Positions 21,266-32,125 of a DNA stretch of 49,369 nucleotides are shown here, piece by piece. Numbering within the stretch: position 1 is the first letter of the stretch; each line of letters starts with the position of its first letter. The notes below the pieces were generated by a model that did no database searches, was not told the origin of the DNA, and saw only the letters and a list, made by a program, of their open reading frames with translations. A program made the translations under genes and the position numbers. Source of the stretch: a virus; the IMG/VR virus record IMGVR_UViG_3300022602_003213, positions 1 to 49,369 of that record; one strand, written 5' to 3'.

Positions 21266-21320
21266 ATACCTGTTGCTGAAAGCGACTGTCCACCATACAA
21301 TAGCAGGGAAAGATAGAGAG

Positions 21321-23552
21321 ATGATCATGGCCACTTCACCTAGAAACGAGATACTGGTAACCAAACGTAACGGTAGCAAGGAGCCACTGAACATTGAAAA
21401 ACTGCACAAGGTAGTGTTTTGGGCAACTGAGGGTATCCAAGGGGTCAGTGCCAGCGAAGTAGAGATCCGCAGCCAGATCCAGTTCTATAACGGTATCAAG
21501 ACGCAGGACCTGCAGGAAACACTGATCAAGGCAGCTGCCGACCTCATTTCCGAAGAAACACCTAACTATCAGTATGTGTCTGGACGTTTGGTCAACTATC
21601 ATCTGCGCAAGGAAGTCTATGGCGATTATCAGCCGTGGCACATACTTGATCTCATCAAGAAGAACGTTGCTGACGGATTTTATGATGCACAGCTGTTGGA
21701 AGAATACACCGAAGGCGAATGGGATGCTATCAATCGTTTCATTGATCACGAGCGCGATGCCAGCTTGACCTATGTGGCCATGGAGCAGATGCGCGGCAAG
21801 TATCTGGTGCAGAACCGAGTGACTGGTGAGATCAAAGAAACACCTCAGATGGCCTATGCGCTGATCGCAGCCACGCTGTTCATTCGCCACGATAAGCCCA
21901 CCAGATTGAACGTTATACATGACTACTACGATGCTATCAGCAGGCATGACATCAGCTTGCCCACACCTATCATGGCAGGCGTGCGCACACCTCAGCGCCA
22001 ATTCAGTAGCTGTGTGTTGATCGAAACAGGCGACAGCTTAGACAGCATCAATGCCACTGCCAGCGCAGTGGTCAAATACGTTAGCCAAAAGGCTGGTATC
22101 GGTATCGGTGCTGGGTCTATTCGTGCTATTGGTTCCCCAATTAGGAACGGTGATGCCAGCCACACAGGCGTGGTACCGTTCTACAAGCTGTTCCAAGCGG
22201 CCACCCGTTCTTGCTCACAGGGTGGTGTACGCAATGGAGCAGCCACCCTTTACTATCCGATCTGGCATCTTGAAGTTGAAGAGATGCTGGTGCTCAAGAA
22301 CAATCGCGGCACCGAAGACAACAGAGTGCGTCACATGGATTACGGTGTGCAGTTCAGCAAGTTGTTCTATGAGCGACTGATACAGGGCGGAGATATCACG
22401 CTGTTCTCACCCAGCGATGTGCCTGGTCTCTATGATGCGTTCTTTGCTGACCAAGACCGGTTCCGTGTGCTGTATGAGACTGCTGAGAAGAACAAGAAGC
22501 TGCGCAAGAAGACGGTCAAGGCCATCGATCTGTTCAGCAGCTTCATGCAGGAACGCAAAGACACAGGCCGCATCTATCTACAGAACGTGGACAATGCTAA
22601 CCAACACGGTGCGTTTATTGAAAGCCTTGCACCAATCAAGCAGAGCAACCTTTGTTCAGAAATAGATTTGCCGACCAAGCCGTTGAATGATTTCAATGAC
22701 GAAGAAGGCGAAATCAGCCTCTGCACTCTCAGTGCCATCAACTGGGGCAACATCCGCAGTCCAGCCGACTTTGAGAAGCCTTGCAAGCTGGCAGTGATGG
22801 CGCTGGACAATCTGTTAGATTACCAAAGCTATCCTGTAAAGGCAGCTTATCGTAGTACAATGAACCGCCGTCCTCTGGGTGTGGGCATCATCAACTTTGC
22901 CTATTGGCTGGCCAAGAACGGCGTAAGCTACAGCGATCCCTCAGCACTGCCGTTGGTTGACGAATACATGGAAGCCATGAGCTACTATCTGATCAAGGCC
23001 AGTGTGGATCTGGCTCGAACCAAAGGGGCTTGCGGCAAGAGTGAAGAGACCAAGTATGGGCATGGTATCGTTCCTATTGACACACGCAAGCGTGACATTG
23101 ACGAACTAGTACCACATGTTGAGCGCATGCCTTGGGCAGAGCTGCGTGAGGATCTGCAAGTAGTTGGCATACGCAACAGCACGTTGATGGCAGTGATGCC
23201 TGCTGAATGTCAATCTCTTAATAATGAAATGCAATTAGCAGATGGAAGCATTATATCACTTGCTGAACTTATACAAGATCTAGGCGGCATTGACATAGAC
23301 GCTGTACATGATAATGTTATGCCAGGTCAGCGATATAGCTTTGATAAACCAATTGAACTAAGCGGAAATATAACTGCATATGAATGCTATTATAATGGCC
23401 CGCAGCCTATGACTGAGATAGAATTTGAAGATGGTAACATCTACAAGTTTACCGAAAATCATAAATTATTAGTTTCTAGGTCTGGTAAACAAATATGGGT
23501 AGAGGTCCGAGACCTAACAGAGGATGATGATATTGTGGCATTGATGCCGTAG
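21321..23552 (+). CDS. nrdA: Ribonucleotide reductase class Ia large subunit, N-terminal part fused to split intein N half
   Basis: 743 residues from ATG 21321 (21327 is an alternative). Residues 1-629 align by eye with E. coli NrdA, with the active-site residues in place: C231 (QFSSCVL), N443, C445 and E447 (SNLCSE), and C468 (LCTLS). At MPAE the protein switches to an intein: C1 is the first residue, T82-E83-N84-H85 matches intein block B, and it stops at TAG after 114 intein residues. The remaining NrdA sequence is encoded 1.1 kb downstream behind the matching Int-C. NrdA reduces ribonucleotides to dNTP precursors with NrdB. This half is inactive without protein trans-splicing. Confidence 0.9.
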   Translation: MIMATSPRNEILVTKRNGSKEPLNIEKLHKVVFWATEGIQGVSASEVEIRSQIQFYNGIKTQDLQETLIKAAADLISEETPNYQYVSGRLVNYHLRKEVYGDYQPWHILDLIKKNVADGFYDAQLLEEYTEGEWDAINRFIDHERDASLTYVAMEQMRGKYLVQNRVTGEIKETPQMAYALIAATLFIRHDKPTRLNVIHDYYDAISRHDISLPTPIMAGVRTPQRQFSSCVLIETGDSLDSINATASAVVKYVSQKAGIGIGAGSIRAIGSPIRNGDASHTGVVPFYKLFQAATRSCSQGGVRNGAATLYYPIWHLEVEEMLVLKNNRGTEDNRVRHMDYGVQFSKLFYERLIQGGDITLFSPSDVPGLYDAFFADQDRFRVLYETAEKNKKLRKKTVKAIDLFSSFMQERKDTGRIYLQNVDNANQHGAFIESLAPIKQSNLCSEIDLPTKPLNDFNDEEGEISLCTLSAINWGNIRSPADFEKPCKLAVMALDNLLDYQSYPVKAAYRSTMNRRPLGVGIINFAYWLAKNGVSYSDPSALPLVDEYMEAMSYYLIKASVDLARTKGACGKSEETKYGHGIVPIDTRKRDIDELVPHVERMPWAELREDLQVVGIRNSTLMAVMPAECQSLNNEMQLADGSIISLAELIQDLGGIDIDAVHDNVMPGQRYSFDKPIELSGNITAYECYYNGPQPMTEIEFEDGNIYKFTENHKLLVSRSGKQIWVEVRDLTEDDDIVALMP
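23208..23549 (+). other. Split intein N-terminal half (Int-N, 114 aa)
   Basis: Begins with the nucleophile Cys at codon 23208 immediately after MPAE of NrdA and ends at a natural stop. It contains block A (CQSLNNEMQLADGS) and block B (FTENHKLLVS) but no blocks F or G, which are in the separate gene at 24577. Composition is clearly more AT-rich than the surrounding nrdA. Confidence 0.88.
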
Positions 23553-23554
23553 AC

Positions 23555-23562
23555 GATAAATA
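23555..23562 (+). promoter_or_regulatory. Late-type promoter motif of the intein-associated endonuclease
   Basis: GATAAATAGTC starts two bases after the Int-N stop, 33 bases before the endonuclease ATG. It suggests the endonuclease can be expressed independently of nrdA. Confidence 0.45.
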
Positions 23563-23594
23563 GTCATGAACTATGCATCAATGCCGAGGTTTAC

Positions 23595-24587
23595 ATGAAA
23601 TCCAACCCATACGATCCAAGTTACATAATGAAGAGAGACAAATGCTCGTATGAAGATGCGCTGCAAATAATATCCAAGATGAAGGCTAGGAATGCCGTAA
23701 ACAAGGGTAAAAAAATAAACAATAGACCTAGCCCCTATGATCCAAACTATATTATGGTGAGGGAAGGGTGTTCGTATGATGCTGCTATTGAATATATCAA
23801 GGCATATAAAGCTAACAAGGCAACATCATTAGATAACTTTATTAAACGACACGGAAATGATGTTGGTAAGATGAAATATGAGGAATGGTTCAACAACTCT
23901 CTGAAAAAAGGTTGGGAAGCAGCTGCTAAAAATGGTAAATCTCAATCGAAATTTTCAGTTGAATACTATATTCGTAAGGGATATATTCACGAGGAAGCCA
24001 GAGAACTTGCATTACAATATCAATACGAAACTAGTCCATTGCATATAGACTATTATATTAAACGTGGAAAATCATTAGATTACGCTAAAAAACAGATACG
24101 TGCTATACACGATAAAAAAATAGGAATTGACAGTTATCGAACGCATTTGCAAAATACAACGCCGATGACATCAGACGAGATACCTCAACAAATCAAAACA
24201 ACAAGAGGGCATTGTTCTAGATCTGCACTAGGCGATGACGAGTTCAATAAGAGGATAGAAAAAACTAGAAAAACCTTTGAATCTAAAAATTTATGGGTTC
24301 CATTAAAAGACATGTCGGATTATGCACTATATCGAAAAGAAGTTTGGCGCTATACAAATGCGAACGACTTGTTGTCATTGGAAAATTATGATAAAAGAGC
24401 ATTAGCAGGAGTAGACGCCGGTTATCACTTAGATCATAATTATTCTATAAGCCAGGGATACATCAATGGTGTTCCTCCAGAGTTAATAGGATCAATACGA
24501 AATTTAAGGATGATACCGTGGAAAGAAAATGTGGTTAAACAAGGCAAATGTGAGATAACCGAAAAGGAATTGTACAATGAAGATTAA
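23595..24587 (+). CDS. Free-standing HNH-type homing endonuclease between the split intein halves
   Basis: 330 residues with a GAGG ribosome-binding site. The N-terminal half has four copies of a roughly 30-residue module. Two begin PYDPSYIMKRDKCSYEDAL and PYDPNYIMVREGCSYDAA (near 4-35 and 43-76); two shorter ones follow near 112-170 (FSVEYYIRKGYIHEEA and HIDYYIKRGKSLDYA). These look like DNA-recognition repeats. Near 275-320, HLDHNYSISQGYINGVPP and IGSIRNLRMIPWKEN form an HNH-like catalytic motif (D-H, N, N). Its 3' end overlaps the Int-C start by 11 bases. The AT-rich composition fits a mobile gene. It would cut intein-free nrdA alleles to spread the insertion. Confidence 0.8.
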   Translation: MKSNPYDPSYIMKRDKCSYEDALQIISKMKARNAVNKGKKINNRPSPYDPNYIMVREGCSYDAAIEYIKAYKANKATSLDNFIKRHGNDVGKMKYEEWFNNSLKKGWEAAAKNGKSQSKFSVEYYIRKGYIHEEARELALQYQYETSPLHIDYYIKRGKSLDYAKKQIRAIHDKKIGIDSYRTHLQNTTPMTSDEIPQQIKTTRGHCSRSALGDDEFNKRIEKTRKTFESKNLWVPLKDMSDYALYRKEVWRYTNANDLLSLENYDKRALAGVDAGYHLDHNYSISQGYINGVPPELIGSIRNLRMIPWKENVVKQGKCEITEKELYNED

Positions 24588-25116
24588 AAGAATTACACGA
24601 GCAGTTGGAATTGAGCATACCTGGGACGTCAGCACATCAAACGAAACATACCGGTTATCTAATGGATGTGTTAGCCATAACACCTCTGCCCAGATTGCCA
24701 ATGCCACCAACGGTATCGAACCACCTCGCAGCTTGATCAGCGTGAAGCAGAGCAAGCACGGTGTGCTCAAGCAGGTTGTTCCAGAGTTCCGTAGACTCAA
24801 GAACAAGTACGAGCTGCTCTGGGATCAGAAGAGCCCAGAAGGTTATCTCAAGATATGCGCAGTGCTACAGAAGTACATTGACCAAGGCATATCGGTGAAT
24901 ACGTCTTACAATCCTCAGCATTATCAAGATGATAAGATCCCACTTAGCGAGATGCTGGGCCACTTGTTGATGTTTTACAAGTATGGTGGCAAGCAGCTTT
25001 ATTATTTCCAGACCTACGATGGTCAGGGAGAGCTCAATGTGACCAAGCTGATCTCAGAGGATGTGGTTGCTTTACCACCAATCGACGAAGCTGACTGCGA
25101 GAGCTGCACCATCTAA
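24577..25116 (+). CDS. nrdA: Split intein C half fused to NrdA C-terminal part
   Basis: 179 residues. Residues 1-35 are Int-C: block F-like HTWDVSTSNETYRLSNG and the terminal H34-N35 of block G. The C-extein begins with Thr at base 24682 (TSAQIANATNGIEPPR), exactly where E. coli NrdA continues after its MPSE. It includes the radical-transfer tyrosine pair in QLYYFQ and ends DCESCTI, the redox-active C-terminal cysteines recharged by glutaredoxin. An AAGGA ribosome-binding site at 24564-24568 supports separate translation. After trans-splicing, NrdA would be 773 residues, close to the E. coli length. Confidence 0.9.
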   Translation: MKIKRITRAVGIEHTWDVSTSNETYRLSNGCVSHNTSAQIANATNGIEPPRSLISVKQSKHGVLKQVVPEFRRLKNKYELLWDQKSPEGYLKICAVLQKYIDQGISVNTSYNPQHYQDDKIPLSEMLGHLLMFYKYGGKQLYYFQTYDGQGELNVTKLISEDVVALPPIDEADCESCTI

Positions 25117-28255: not shown

Positions 28256-28591
28256 ATGTTGATTGAAAAATCATGGAAGGTTGATGACATCTGCACAGTA
28301 AAGATGGTCAGCGGTGAAGAGATAATAACCAAGATAGTTGCAGCAGATGATGCTAGCATCACAATGAGCAAACCACTTAGTGTTCAGCTTAGCATGGACC
28401 CTCAGAGCGGTAGGATGGGCATGCAGCTGCTGCCTGGTTTCGTGCTCACGGTGAACGTTGATGCCAAGATCAAGGTTGGCATGCACAATGTCATGTTCAT
28501 CGCACCAACTGAAGAAGGCGTAAAAAAGAGCTATCTCAGCCAGACCACAGGTTTGGCAATAACTAGCGGGAACAGTGGCCTCAAGCTTTGA
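28256..28591 (+). CDS. Sm-like-fold phage protein (tentative)
   Basis: 111 residues. The segment VKMVSGEEIITKIVAADDASITMSKPL has the strand pattern of Sm1-type domains found in small T4-type phage proteins, with GEEI at the first bend. No catalytic residue is seen. It has an AGGAG ribosome-binding site and its stop overlaps the TTG start of the next gene. It might bind RNA, which would be interesting given the adjacent tmRNA, but the call is by pattern only. Confidence 0.5.
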   Translation: MLIEKSWKVDDICTVKMVSGEEIITKIVAADDASITMSKPLSVQLSMDPQSGRMGMQLLPGFVLTVNVDAKIKVGMHNVMFIAPTEEGVKKSYLSQTTGLAITSGNSGLKL

Positions 28592-28821
28592 GATATCCGT
28601 CCAATCCAGAACCAAACAAGACTATACAATGGGCACAGGGACAACCTTGCAGCCATTGCGGAAAGCCCACTGAGGCTATATTGCATCAGTTTCAAGGCGG
28701 TAATGATAGGTGGGCGTACTGGGCACCTCTGTATCACAATGCAGAGCGCAATCTAGGATTTTGTGACGTTAAGTGTAGTTTTGAGTGGTCTAAGGTTGAC
28801 TATACAAGGATTGATGCTTAA
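28588..28821 (+). CDS. Small zinc-ribbon-like protein
   Basis: 77 residues from a TTG at 28588; no in-frame ATG exists near the N-terminus and the TTGA overlap matches the coupling style of the window. Contains CSHC near residue 21 and C-D-V-K-C near 59-63, a four-cysteine set likely to bind zinc, and two Trp-rich segments. No family named. It ends inside the tmRNA promoter region. Confidence 0.55.
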   Translation: MRYPSNPEPNKTIQWAQGQPCSHCGKPTEAILHQFQGGNDRWAYWAPLYHNAERNLGFCDVKCSFEWSKVDYTRIDA

Positions 28822-28824
28822 ATA
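28796..28824 (+). promoter_or_regulatory. Promoter of the tmRNA gene (sigma-70-like overlapping a late-type motif)
   Basis: GG-TTGACT (28796-28801), 16-base spacer, TTAAAT (28818-28823), and the same bases read TTAAATA like the late motif. A start point near 28830 would place the RNA 5' end just before the acceptor piece. It overlaps the end of the preceding gene. Confidence 0.5.
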
Positions 28825-28829
28825 GAACT

Positions 28830-28893
28830 GCTGATGTTGATAGCATCATAATAAGCGGACTGGACCCGGGGGCGGTACCCGGCGCCTCCACCA
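28830..28893 (+). other. tmRNA acceptor piece
   Basis: Ends CCTCCACCA at 28893. T-stem CCGGG (28866-28870) with CCCGG (28878-28882) and a 7-base loop GGCGGTA, which lacks the usual TTC. A small hairpin GATG/CATC (28833-28847) lies near the 5' end. The 5' limit is estimated from the promoter. Confidence 0.7.
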
Positions 28894-28973
28894 TAGATAC
28901 ACAGCGCAAATGCCTAGCAAGGGGGCATGGTTGATATACCCGCTCGCTGAATAAAACCATGTGTATCTTTGCT
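28894..28973 (+). other. tmRNA intervening segment removed during maturation
   Basis: AGATACACA (28895-28903) and TGTGTATCT (28960-28968) are exact reverse complements, so the precursor folds into a helix stacked on the acceptor stem. An inner hairpin ATGCC/GGCAT is also possible. This is the layout expected of a permuted pre-tmRNA. Confidence 0.75.
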
Positions 28974-29068
28974 GGGGGCGAAATAGGATTCGACAGACGT
29001 GTAAAGGGTAGCAGGAGTCAGTAGGTTAGGCACGCCTCCGGGTAACCGGATTGTCCAATTTTCTAACT

Positions 29069-29113
29069 GCAAACGATAACAACGTTGCATTTGAGACTCG
29101 CCTAGCGGCGTAA
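29069..29113 (+). other. tmRNA tag-encoding frame
   Basis: GCA resume codon at 29069, then 13 further codons and TAA at 29111-29113, giving ANDNNVAFETRLAA. The ANDN start and LAA end are typical of alphaproteobacterial tags; LAA is the ClpX/ClpA recognition end. Upstream a TCCGG-GTAA-CCGGA hairpin (29037-29050) sits where pseudoknot 1 is expected. Confidence 0.88.
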
Positions 29114-29156
29114 CCTCATTGGGTATGGGTTCCACCTAGAAACAGAACGGGCCCAC

Positions 29157-29891
29157 TCATTTTTCATATTCAAAGTAAAGCCTGTCGCCATTGTCTTTCT
29201 TGAAGGTAACCAGTGTTACGGCATTCTCTTTAGCAATGCGATGTGCAGCTTCAAAATCCCAAGGAAATATTTCAATCCATGGTCCATTCTTGTGTGATTG
29301 TCCAGGATTGGCACGAACGTATATCTTGCCGCCGGGTGCGGTCAGTTCAAACACCTTGCTGAACCTAGCAGAAACATCATCATAATCTCCAAAATTGATG
29401 CTACCAAACACTATTACAGCATCATAGCTCTCGGGTTCAACATTGTATTCTAGTATGTCCACCATGTAATCTGCGCTGTTGTTGAACTTATCAATTCCAA
29501 CCAAGTTCTTGATCCTCGGCTTGAATTGGTTATAGCCACAGCCCACATCCAGCACAGCCTTGGGATCGCGCTTGTTGATCTCATCGACTATGTTCCAACC
29601 CGTGTATTGATAAACATCTGTGCGAGGTTGCCAAACGCCGCCGCCCCAGAATCTTGCGGCATACTTGTCGTCAATGTCAGCAGTTAGGTTAGTTACAGAA
29701 CCTGATAGATCAATCTCAACATCAAACAGATTGGCAAGGTCGTCTTTGAACTTTGCTAAACGCTTGGGTGTCCACGGTAGGTCCAAAATAACAGAGTCAG
29801 CTGCTATGCCAGCACGGATATCATCCCATCTGGGTAAATTAAAGGATTCGTGTAATTTTTCGACAAGATGATTGAAAATTTTGGTGTTCAT
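29157..29891 (-). CDS. SAM-dependent class I methyltransferase
   Basis: 244 residues from ATG 29891 (MNTKIFNHLV); the longer frame upstream overlaps the divergent gene. The motif I segment VLDVGCGYNQF, the acidic end of strand 2 (LVGIDKF), a motif IV-like DAVIVFGSIN and the post-motif APGGKIYVRANPG identify a Rossmann-fold methyltransferase. The substrate is not evident; no target-recognition domain of DNA methyltransferases is visible, so a small molecule, glycan or protein is as likely. It is convergent with the tmRNA and divergent from the oxygenase at 29962. Confidence 0.8.
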   Translation of the reverse strand: MNTKIFNHLVEKLHESFNLPRWDDIRAGIAADSVILDLPWTPKRLAKFKDDLANLFDVEIDLSGSVTNLTADIDDKYAARFWGGGVWQPRTDVYQYTGWNIVDEINKRDPKAVLDVGCGYNQFKPRIKNLVGIDKFNNSADYMVDILEYNVEPESYDAVIVFGSINFGDYDDVSARFSKVFELTAPGGKIYVRANPGQSHKNGPWIEIFPWDFEAAHRIAKENAVTLVTFKKDNGDRLYFEYEK

Positions 29892-29932
29892 GTAATTTTT
29901 CCGCGCTGGTATTTGATTTGTATAATATATAA

Positions 29933-29940
29933 TATAAATA
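29933..29940 (+). promoter_or_regulatory. Perfect T4-type late promoter TATAAATA
   Basis: TATAAATATC in an AT-rich 70-base divergent spacer, 22 bases before ATG 29962. Confidence 0.55.
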
Positions 29941-29961
29941 TCAGCATATAGCGAAAAAAAC

Positions 29962-30696
29962 ATGACAGACACAAAAACAGAAGATTGGCAAGGTAGCAGA
30001 TGGGAATTTACCAAGAACCGTAGCCGTTGGCATTTTGATACCACACGAGCGCCTAAGCCGGGCATGGACAGCTACACGCATGTGTGTAGATTCAATGCAG
30101 ATTTCAGCACAGCTATCGCAGAATGCATGCCTCGTGCCAAGGTCAGCAGCTGGGGCACACGCAATAACTTCAACAAAGATATCGCCGACCAAGGACTGTA
30201 CAGTGCCAGTGCCGAGGAGCAGGATTTGATCAAGGCGGGTGCAGATCCCAGTGCTGCTGTGTTTAATCGAACTGCTGCTGAAGACATTGAGTTGTTTGGT
30301 AAGATCAGCGACTGTTTGGGCATGGATGACAGCATGATCAAGTTCCATAACCAGACCACAGGGCAGATGCTGCACACTCACATAGACAATTTCGCAGCAC
30401 GTCCAGAGCGTGAGAACAGCTTCAAGGTAACTGAGATGGATGAGAATCCACAGATCATGCGACGGTTTGCGATAATGCTTGCAGACTGGCAGCTGGGACA
30501 GATATTCCAACTGGGCAATGCCAATTTCACAGGATGGCGAGCAGGTGACTGCATAACCTGGGAATGGCAGGACATGCCGCATAGCACGGCCAACATGGGA
30601 TGGTGGGATCGCCCCATGCTGCAGATAACAGGATATGTGACTGACAAGACACAGTGGCTCTTAGACACAAAGAAGCCTATAGAATTTAACTTGTGA
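29962..30696 (+). CDS. 2-oxoglutarate/Fe(II)-type oxygenase (tentative)
   Basis: 244 residues. The facial triad pattern H140-x-D142 (LHTHIDNF), H207 (DMPHSTAN) and R217 (WWDRPMLQITG) fits 2OG dioxygenases. The core strands (RRFAIMLADWQLGQIFQLG, GDCITWEW) match a double-stranded beta-helix. It is distinct from the beta-hydroxylase-like protein at 16878. It lies between a methyltransferase and a transporter, so it might modify a small molecule taken up by the cell, or a host protein; the sequence does not decide. Confidence 0.65.
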   Translation: MTDTKTEDWQGSRWEFTKNRSRWHFDTTRAPKPGMDSYTHVCRFNADFSTAIAECMPRAKVSSWGTRNNFNKDIADQGLYSASAEEQDLIKAGADPSAAVFNRTAAEDIELFGKISDCLGMDDSMIKFHNQTTGQMLHTHIDNFAARPERENSFKVTEMDENPQIMRRFAIMLADWQLGQIFQLGNANFTGWRAGDCITWEWQDMPHSTANMGWWDRPMLQITGYVTDKTQWLLDTKKPIEFNL

Positions 30697-30706
30697 GGAG
30701 GAACTG

Positions 30707-32125
30707 ATGTTTCCATTATTTGATCAATCCGTAGGACTGTTAATGATTGCAGTCTACGCAATATTTGCATTTGGACTAACGTCGTGGTTTGCCAAAAACT
30801 ATGATCGCACCAAAGAAAGTTTCTTGGTAGCAGATAGAACGGTACCATATTGGCAGGGCAGCATGGCAGTAGGTGCTAGCTGGATCTGGGCACCGGGTCT
30901 ATTTGTTGCAGCACAGCAGGGATTCAACAACGGACTAGCCGGTGTGTTTTGGTTCAGCCTTGGTAACTTTTTCAGCTTAATCATTTTCAGTTATGCTGCC
31001 AAAAAGATCAGAGACCAATACAGCGAAGGTTTCACTCTTAGCCAATGGTTCCGAGGCAAATATGGTAAATTCATACAGTTCTTGGTCTTGATTAACACCG
31101 CGTTGTACGCACTGCAAGGCATCACCATCAATTTATTTGCTGGAAGCAAGAGTGTGACACTGCTCAGTGGGTTACCGCAGCTATTGGTCAGCGTTCTGTT
31201 AGTAGCCATAGCTTTGACTTACAGCTGGCGCGGCGGACTCAAGGCTAGTATAGCCACTGATATTGCCAAGATAGTTGCTATTTGGATTGGCATGATCATA
31301 GTTGGTGTATGTGTTTTTGGCCATACTGGTTTTGATCCTGTCATAGCAGGTGCTGCAGGCAAAAGCGGAGCAGGTACAACGCTGTTTAGTTCACCTCTAG
31401 CGCTGGGGTTGTTTTTTGGGTTTGGGGTGCCAACAGTGGTGGGGCATTTGGCAATGAGCTGGAGCGACAACAGCAATTATCAAAATGCCTTTAGCATGAC
31501 CCCAGATGTTGTTCGTAAAGCGTTCATAACCGCCCCGTTGTATTGGTTGATACTGCCGACACTGGGCGGCATGATAGGGATGCTGGCAGCTGGACTCAAC
31601 TACGATGTCAAGGGTCCCGATACTGGTTTCATTAACATCGTGGTTATGGCTAAAGAAGTTGGTTCATGGCTGCCTTTTGTGTACATGGCAGTGGTATTTG
31701 CTGGATTGGTGAGCATCATTGATACACAGATGCTCAGTGCTGGCAACATTGGTGGTAACGACGTGCATGACAGCGCTAACGGCAGCAATGCTATCCAATG
31801 GGGACGTTGGGCTATGGTGGTTTTGGCCGTGTTTGGTGTTGCTTTAGCAAACATACCGGGCCTGGACATCAATACCATATTTGTTTTCAGCAAGAGTCTT
31901 ACCTTGGTTTTCTTTGCTCCGATAGCAATGGCTATCGTGGCAGGAAATCATCTAACCAAACAAGGATTCATAGCAGGTAGCATCGTAGGCATGTTCGTGG
32001 GATTGCCAGTTTTTACATATGGTCAGTTTTGGGGAGGTGGTAGCCAGATAATAGCATTAGGTGTAGTGATCCAAGTGTTTGGATCAGCTGCAGTAACTTG
32101 GATAGTGAGCAAGCTTACAGCATGA
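30707..32125 (+). CDS. Sodium:solute symporter family transporter
   Basis: 472 residues with about 12-13 hydrophobic segments across the full length and a GAGGAG ribosome-binding site. The order of segments and motifs such as DRTVPYWQGSMAVGASWIWAP, TLSQWFRGKYGK, a TYSWRGGLKASIATD loop and GLVSIIDTQMLSAGN matches SSS/LeuT-fold symporters (PutP, DUR3 and related). It would move a solute into the cell with sodium across the inner membrane. The substrate cannot be read; urea, proline, choline-like and organic acid carriers all belong here. It is intact and full length, unusual for a phage gene. ATGA overlap with the next gene. Confidence 0.85.
   Translation: MFPLFDQSVGLLMIAVYAIFAFGLTSWFAKNYDRTKESFLVADRTVPYWQGSMAVGASWIWAPGLFVAAQQGFNNGLAGVFWFSLGNFFSLIIFSYAAKKIRDQYSEGFTLSQWFRGKYGKFIQFLVLINTALYALQGITINLFAGSKSVTLLSGLPQLLVSVLLVAIALTYSWRGGLKASIATDIAKIVAIWIGMIIVGVCVFGHTGFDPVIAGAAGKSGAGTTLFSSPLALGLFFGFGVPTVVGHLAMSWSDNSNYQNAFSMTPDVVRKAFITAPLYWLILPTLGGMIGMLAAGLNYDVKGPDTGFINIVVMAKEVGSWLPFVYMAVVFAGLVSIIDTQMLSAGNIGGNDVHDSANGSNAIQWGRWAMVVLAVFGVALANIPGLDINTIFVFSKSLTLVFFAPIAMAIVAGNHLTKQGFIAGSIVGMFVGLPVFTYGQFWGGGSQIIALGVVIQVFGSAAVTWIVSKLTA

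Follow-up and report, generated by a model that had tools for sequence, protein, structure and literature searches.

Whether a T4-type phage encodes a ribosome-rescue RNA of its own in two pieces and in permuted order, and what the segment between the pieces may hold in its viral relatives, is the question raised by a locus in virus record IMGVR_UViG_3300022602_003213, analysed over its whole length of 49,369 bases (hereafter the window, an incomplete genome). From the letters of the window, a phage-encoded, circularly permuted two-piece transfer-messenger RNA (tmRNA) gene had been proposed here, made up of an acceptor end with CCA, an intervening segment closed by a 9-base-pair (bp) helix, a 7-bp acceptor pairing that includes G3-U70, a consensus motif and a tag frame, and every one of these elements is present. 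The stretch 28830-29157 (+) is confirmed as a complete circularly permuted two-piece tmRNA gene. The novelty of this element is modest; it is outweighed in importance by the architecture of its viral relatives, in which protein genes are nested within the split tmRNA gene.

The permuted tmRNA gene of the window

Rfam covariance models, which the original prediction had named as its check, match the locus and cover both pieces. With cmscan of the window, RF01849 (alpha_tmRNA) scored 120.9 bits against a gathering threshold of 50 (E 1.6e-32; 28792-29157, model positions 1-355) and RF04321 (tmRNA_permuted) scored 105.2 bits against 47 (E 1.4e-19; from 28830, model positions 1-213), while ARAGORN called a permuted tmRNA with the identical tag ANDNNVAFETRLAA. 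The acceptor piece lies 5' of the coding piece and joins it by a 7-bp helix with G3-U70, the CCA is encoded, and the tag frame closes with a hydrophobic AA-stop; these elements together with the covariance scores are far beyond chance. The single-sequence fold has a z-score of -1.7, obtained by plain folding that is blind to pseudoknots. The extent first given, 28796-29140, needs slight adjustment at both ends: position 28796 falls in a putative promoter (its TTGACT) and not in the RNA, whose acceptor piece has its probable start near 28826-28830 and whose coding piece is likely to extend to about 29145-29157 (Table 1).

Matches elsewhere in the window to topoisomerase gp39/gp52, NrdA, NrdB and polynucleotide kinase of T4-type phages, along with an exonuclease, a DnaB-like helicase end and tail or virion proteins, support a T4-type phage as the carrier of the tmRNA. 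The description as permuted, two-piece, phage-encoded and T4-type is thus borne out by covariance models, gene content and syntenic relatives alike.

The window locus is in all likelihood a functional alphaproteobacterial-type two-piece tmRNA gene of this phage, as judged from sequence. A single precursor would be transcribed from the promoter at 28796-28823, and its spacer would be removed by host tRNA-processing enzymes, with RNase P cutting at G28974 and a 3' nuclease acting after the CCA at 28893. The two pieces would then be held together by the acceptor and P2 helix pairing, the CCA end would be charged by host alanyl-tRNA synthetase via G3-U70, and host SmpB and EF-Tu would bring the charged tmRNA into stalled ribosomes. 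Upon appending of the tag, the product would be destroyed by host proteases and the ribosome released. The RNA steps of this scheme are established for the alphaproteobacterial two-piece tmRNA. We infer that the phage would rescue ribosomes with its own tag, and an own supply of tmRNA could prove valuable once phage nucleases and transcript turnover yield many broken mRNAs.

Maintenance of the gene among relatives and alternative readings

In two relatives (L064 and L082), the flanking genes are common with the window, mostly at 67-78% DNA identity, and the tmRNA is retained in place; of 29 related records searched by covariance model, 19 have a tmRNA, 16 of these above the curated cut-off. 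The acceptor strands of the window (GGGGGCG/CGCCUCC) correspond to GGGGCAU/AUGCUCC in L064, GGGGCUG/CAGCUCC in L082, GGGGACG/CGUCUCC in L147, GGGGUCG/CGGCUCC in L102 and GGGCCUG/CAGGUCC in L120. The stem is hence rebuilt variously with G3-U70 constant, and strands lying 31 to 504 nucleotides (nt) apart shift jointly. When 42 viral tmRNAs were aligned with their pieces joined over the spacer, pairing was seen in 99.7% of cells for the acceptor stem, 100% for the T-arm and 81.5% for the 13-bp helix that closes the spacer, the last with both-sided changes at 13/13 pairs. The covariation score over these three helices was 0.576, versus 0.168 when shuffled and at most 0.122 when slid. Since the gene is kept in place and its separated acceptor strands co-vary, it can be concluded that the tmRNA is selected and is not debris.

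Certain observations weigh against a functional tmRNA gene. The structural scan that supplied the aligned loci required at least 6/7 acceptor pairs together with U70, so that the figures for acceptor pairing and the constancy of G3-U70 are partly built in; the closing helix played no part in the selection. Neither the window nor any of 18 related records, all of which are fragments, yielded SmpB (PF01668); because the phage fragment encodes none, the phage tmRNA would depend on host SmpB. When scanned strictly for sigma-70 promoters, the window gave none, and the putative one is a weak match. The promoter is proposed because six relatives (L064, L082, L115, L147, L102 and L059) carry TTGACA/T-N16/17-TATAAATA at the equivalent position 5' of the acceptor piece.

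The alternative that survives best, although improbable, is a decoy, a phage tmRNA that would draw SmpB or ribosomes away from the host tmRNA and so block trans-translation instead of carrying it out. Unlike that of DS6A, the tag frame of the window is intact, and tags of the same kind occur in its sisters (ANDNNVASEIRLAA, ANDNFVASEIRLAA and ANDNFVASEIALAA). Even less probable is that a host ssrA was captured as a passenger, or left as debris of an attachment site, and lost its function. Host ssrA genes are often integration sites and prophages hold fragments of them (PMC9004378), and the want of a phage SmpB would fit such an origin; yet the gene is complete, relatives retain it in place with compensatory changes, and their tags keep ANDN...LAA. 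Nor was a close host sequence found among 385 alphaproteobacterial genomes, where the best chromosomal DNA matches of the coding piece are about 32-38 nt long.

Protein genes in the spacers of viral relatives

Among the viral contigs fetched, scanning for the permuted structure turned up about 65 different tmRNAs of this kind, whose spacers range from 5 to 504 nt. Chromosomal alphaproteobacterial spacers (30 loci) measure 10-61 nt, with a median of 35, against 80 nt in the window. Several long viral spacers hold open reading frames (ORFs) that evolve as protein genes. The contig samples overlap and are partly redundant, and the ratios of nonsynonymous to synonymous change (dN/dS) were taken from unique sequences.

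The first such family (A; L019, L052, L027, L058 and L305) is an ORF of 64-68 amino acids (aa) within tmRNA spacers of 180-215 nt, with dN of 0.19-0.29 and dS of 1.1-2.8 among its three closer members, indicative of purifying selection. It is found as a stand-alone gene too in other viral contigs, with a tmRNA nearby or not, and the spacer slot therefore seems to gain and lose genes.

The second family (B) was sampled as 80 of 247 contigs found by protein similarity (L339-L418) and encodes a single-span hydrophobic, membrane-protein ORF of 38-40 aa in spacers of 157-380 nt. The ORF lies inside the tmRNA spacer in 74 of the 80 contigs, 71 placed by script and three by eye (L402, L410 and L411; the tmRNAs of L402 and L410 were found by covariance search as well), and directly 5' of the tmRNA in four, with two near contig ends being unplaceable. 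Across 38 unique DNA sequences the median dN/dS is 0.097, and differences fall on the three codon positions at 29/10/60%. A Shine-Dalgarno-like purine stretch, by a loose test, precedes all 38, and in 37 the stop codon TGA ends exactly one base 5' of G1 of the GGGGGCG coding piece. In most cases (63/73) the ORF is overlapped by another frame, about 19 aa long, that starts right after the CCA and has a DEEP-STRGK-like end. The one contig checked for it, L393, carries a gp59-like helicase loader.

A third family (C; L038 and L054; dN 0.07, dS 0.51) matches phrog_16066 (7e-10), and in L306 an ORF of 114 aa occupies most of a 383-nt spacer. Families A and B had no match in cultured phages. ORF length as sole proof of spacer genes was set aside as weak (10/42 segments reach p 0.01 or better, single family B segments do not), and the case for spacer genes accordingly rests on codon-level conservation. 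A further group (D; L023, L060 and L053) was left as unproven; its ORF runs into the coding piece and shares the constraint of that piece.

The longest insert belongs to two sister contigs of the window phage (L100/L101), in which a neighbouring protein is 91% identical. Here an ORF of 169 aa of LAGLIDADG type lies mostly within a 504-nt spacer and extends into the coding piece, with a TATAAATA of its own, while acceptor pairing is still 7/7 despite the insert. The Pfam match (E 7e-4) is just under the curated cut-off and the match to phrog_5046 has E 8e-18; the protein was found in those two contigs only. The slot is thus filled in two sister contigs and unfilled in the window phage, where the longest ORF ending in the 80-nt spacer has 14 codons (p 0.40) and no ORF is significant.

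We consider it highly likely that viruses recurrently use the spacer of the split tmRNA gene as a slot for protein genes; it is taken up by no fewer than three unrelated families of small proteins and by a LAGLIDADG gene, with the tmRNA left intact. Slot ORFs often fill the spacer almost to its last base, and a co-varying helix closes the spacer. One primary transcript would serve as a small mRNA and then, once cleaved, yield the tmRNA; if so, translating the nested ORF and cleaving the precursor are in competition, and small phage proteins of unknown function linked to trans-translation become testable. The functions of the spacer genes, like that of the tmRNA, are those we infer. A limited literature search, mostly without subscription journals, returned no report of ORFs in permuted-tmRNA spacers.

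That the locus has its main value as an insertion or transcription site for homing endonucleases and nested ORFs, with the tmRNA role secondary, is scarcely credible: ORFs do occur in many viral spacers, the LAGLIDADG gene among them, and a GIY-YIG homing endonuclease (phrog_314, 6e-39) stands directly 5' of the tmRNA in a syntenic relative (L064:2781-3542), but the window has neither endonuclease nor nested ORF, the tmRNA structure is intact in all insert-bearing relatives, even around 504 nt, and the pattern so far is that nested ORFs come and go as the tmRNA structure persists.

Known systems, host and neighbouring genes

Two-piece tmRNAs of phages have been known since 2022, and the window element is a further example. 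In a survey of 18,146 phage genomes, 53 of the 133 unique tmRNA structures were two-piece forms, with 50 of them marine or aquatic; the survey described a two-piece tmRNA with a glutamine riboswitch in phages Melnitz and Mosig as well as two-piece tmRNAs in pelagimyophages (PMC9004378). The tmRNA database has 79 sequences from phages (PMC11915505). Like the window, Melnitz, Mosig and the pelagimyophages combine a permuted alpha-type ssrA with a T4-type myophage, and by covariance search HTVC008M has an RF04321 match at 145161-145370. The ssrA of Melnitz and Mosig is linked to the riboswitch, whereas the window phage is of another lineage and has another tag; no glutamine riboswitch reached the Rfam gathering threshold in the whole window, where the sole matches were the two tmRNA models. 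The window thus adds a T4-type lineage, distantly akin to jumbo phages of Rhizobiaceae, to the phages with their own ribosome-rescue RNA.

Chromosomal alpha_tmRNA (RF01849, for example in Caulobacter) has the gene order, acceptor CCA, G3-U70 and ANDN...AA-type tag seen in the window and differs in its shorter spacer; the window tag was absent from the 30 alphaproteobacterial loci examined. Sinorhizobium phage Phosso carries a permuted tmRNA, unannotated in its record, with the tag ANDNVSTKVALAA and a spacer of 410 nt without a significant ORF. An internal inverted repeat, GCTGCAAACG...CGTTTGCAGC, lies in that spacer (L007:2013-2422). ARAGORN misses both the Phosso tmRNA and the LAGLIDADG-bearing one, and annotation tools overlook the longest spacer forms. 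No tmRNA was found in Agrobacterium phage Atu_ph07, which agrees with a published comparison where Atu_ph07 is listed without one and Sinorhizobium jumbo phage AP-J-162 with a single tmRNA (PMC11242549). Group I intron tmRNA genes with a homing endonuclease (PMC11915505) resemble the viral relatives in having a mobile or coding insert within a tmRNA gene, but that insert is self-splicing and lies in the T-loop region, whereas the viral one lies in the intervening segment and would be removed by tRNA processing.

By the gp52-like protein, the closest cultured phages are the jumbo phages Phosso (57%) and Atu_ph07 (53.5%); the first 24 kb of the window had no megablast-level match among 50,697 phage records. 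An alphaproteobacterial host is plausible, given that the best-matching model is the alpha one and that the closest cultured phages have Rhizobiaceae as hosts. The original prediction took the permuted gene as a pointer to the host, and this holds to that extent; it is no proof of host class, because the host of Melnitz, a phage whose tmRNA is of the alpha type, is a gammaproteobacterium (PMC9004378). We name no host, since genome_contigs contained nothing that fits the exact tag-region pattern and the coding-piece matches were short.

Table 1 Features of the tmRNA locus and of its surroundings
Feature	Position	Strand	Basis or remark
Upstream ORF, 77 aa, member of syntenic block	28588..28821	+	Homologue precedes tmRNA in L064 and L100/L144
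Putative promoter TTGACT-N16-TTAAAT	28796..28823	+	Proposed from relatives; overlaps upstream ORF end and stop codon
Acceptor piece (P2-side strand, GGAC, T-arm, acceptor 3' strand, ACCA; tRNA-like 3' half)	28830..28893	+	RF04321, RF01849
T-arm	28866-28882	+	In acceptor piece
Acceptor 3' strand CGCCUCC	28883-28889	+	Followed by ACCA, 28890-28893
Intervening segment (spacer), 80 nt	28894..28973	+	Between acceptor and coding pieces
Spacer-closing helix, perfect 9 bp	28895-28903 with 28960-28968	+	Pairing
Coding piece (acceptor 5' strand, AGGATTCGAC, tag frame, 3' part)	28974..29157	+	RF01849 to 29157
Acceptor 5' strand GGGGGCG	28974-28980	+	7/7 pairs with 28883-28889, G3-U70 included
AGGATTCGAC	28985-28994	+	In coding piece
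Tag reading frame ANDNNVAFETRLAA-stop (GCA...TAA)	29069..29113	+	ARAGORN
Convergent methyltransferase-like gene	29157..30065	-	Methyltransf_25 E 0.0013, under curated cut-off
LAGLIDADG-type gene between acceptor and coding pieces	L144:1600-2109		Contigs 3300000553_000713, 3300022602_003131

The 77-aa upstream ORF had no Pfam or PHROG match, and on the other side the end of the coding piece meets the stop codon of the convergent methyltransferase-like gene. Farther off, NrdA (21273-25116) is seemingly interrupted by an intein, its halves flanking a separate ORF at 23595-24587; the N-part closes in an intein-like CQSLNNEM... stretch and the C-part opens with ...GCVSHN/TSAQ, and the ORF between them could be a homing endonuclease in a split-intein arrangement. 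Downstream, the window encodes a sodium:solute symporter family protein (30707-32125; PF00474 E 3.7e-10, phrog_20720 E 3e-62), an unusual cargo for a phage.
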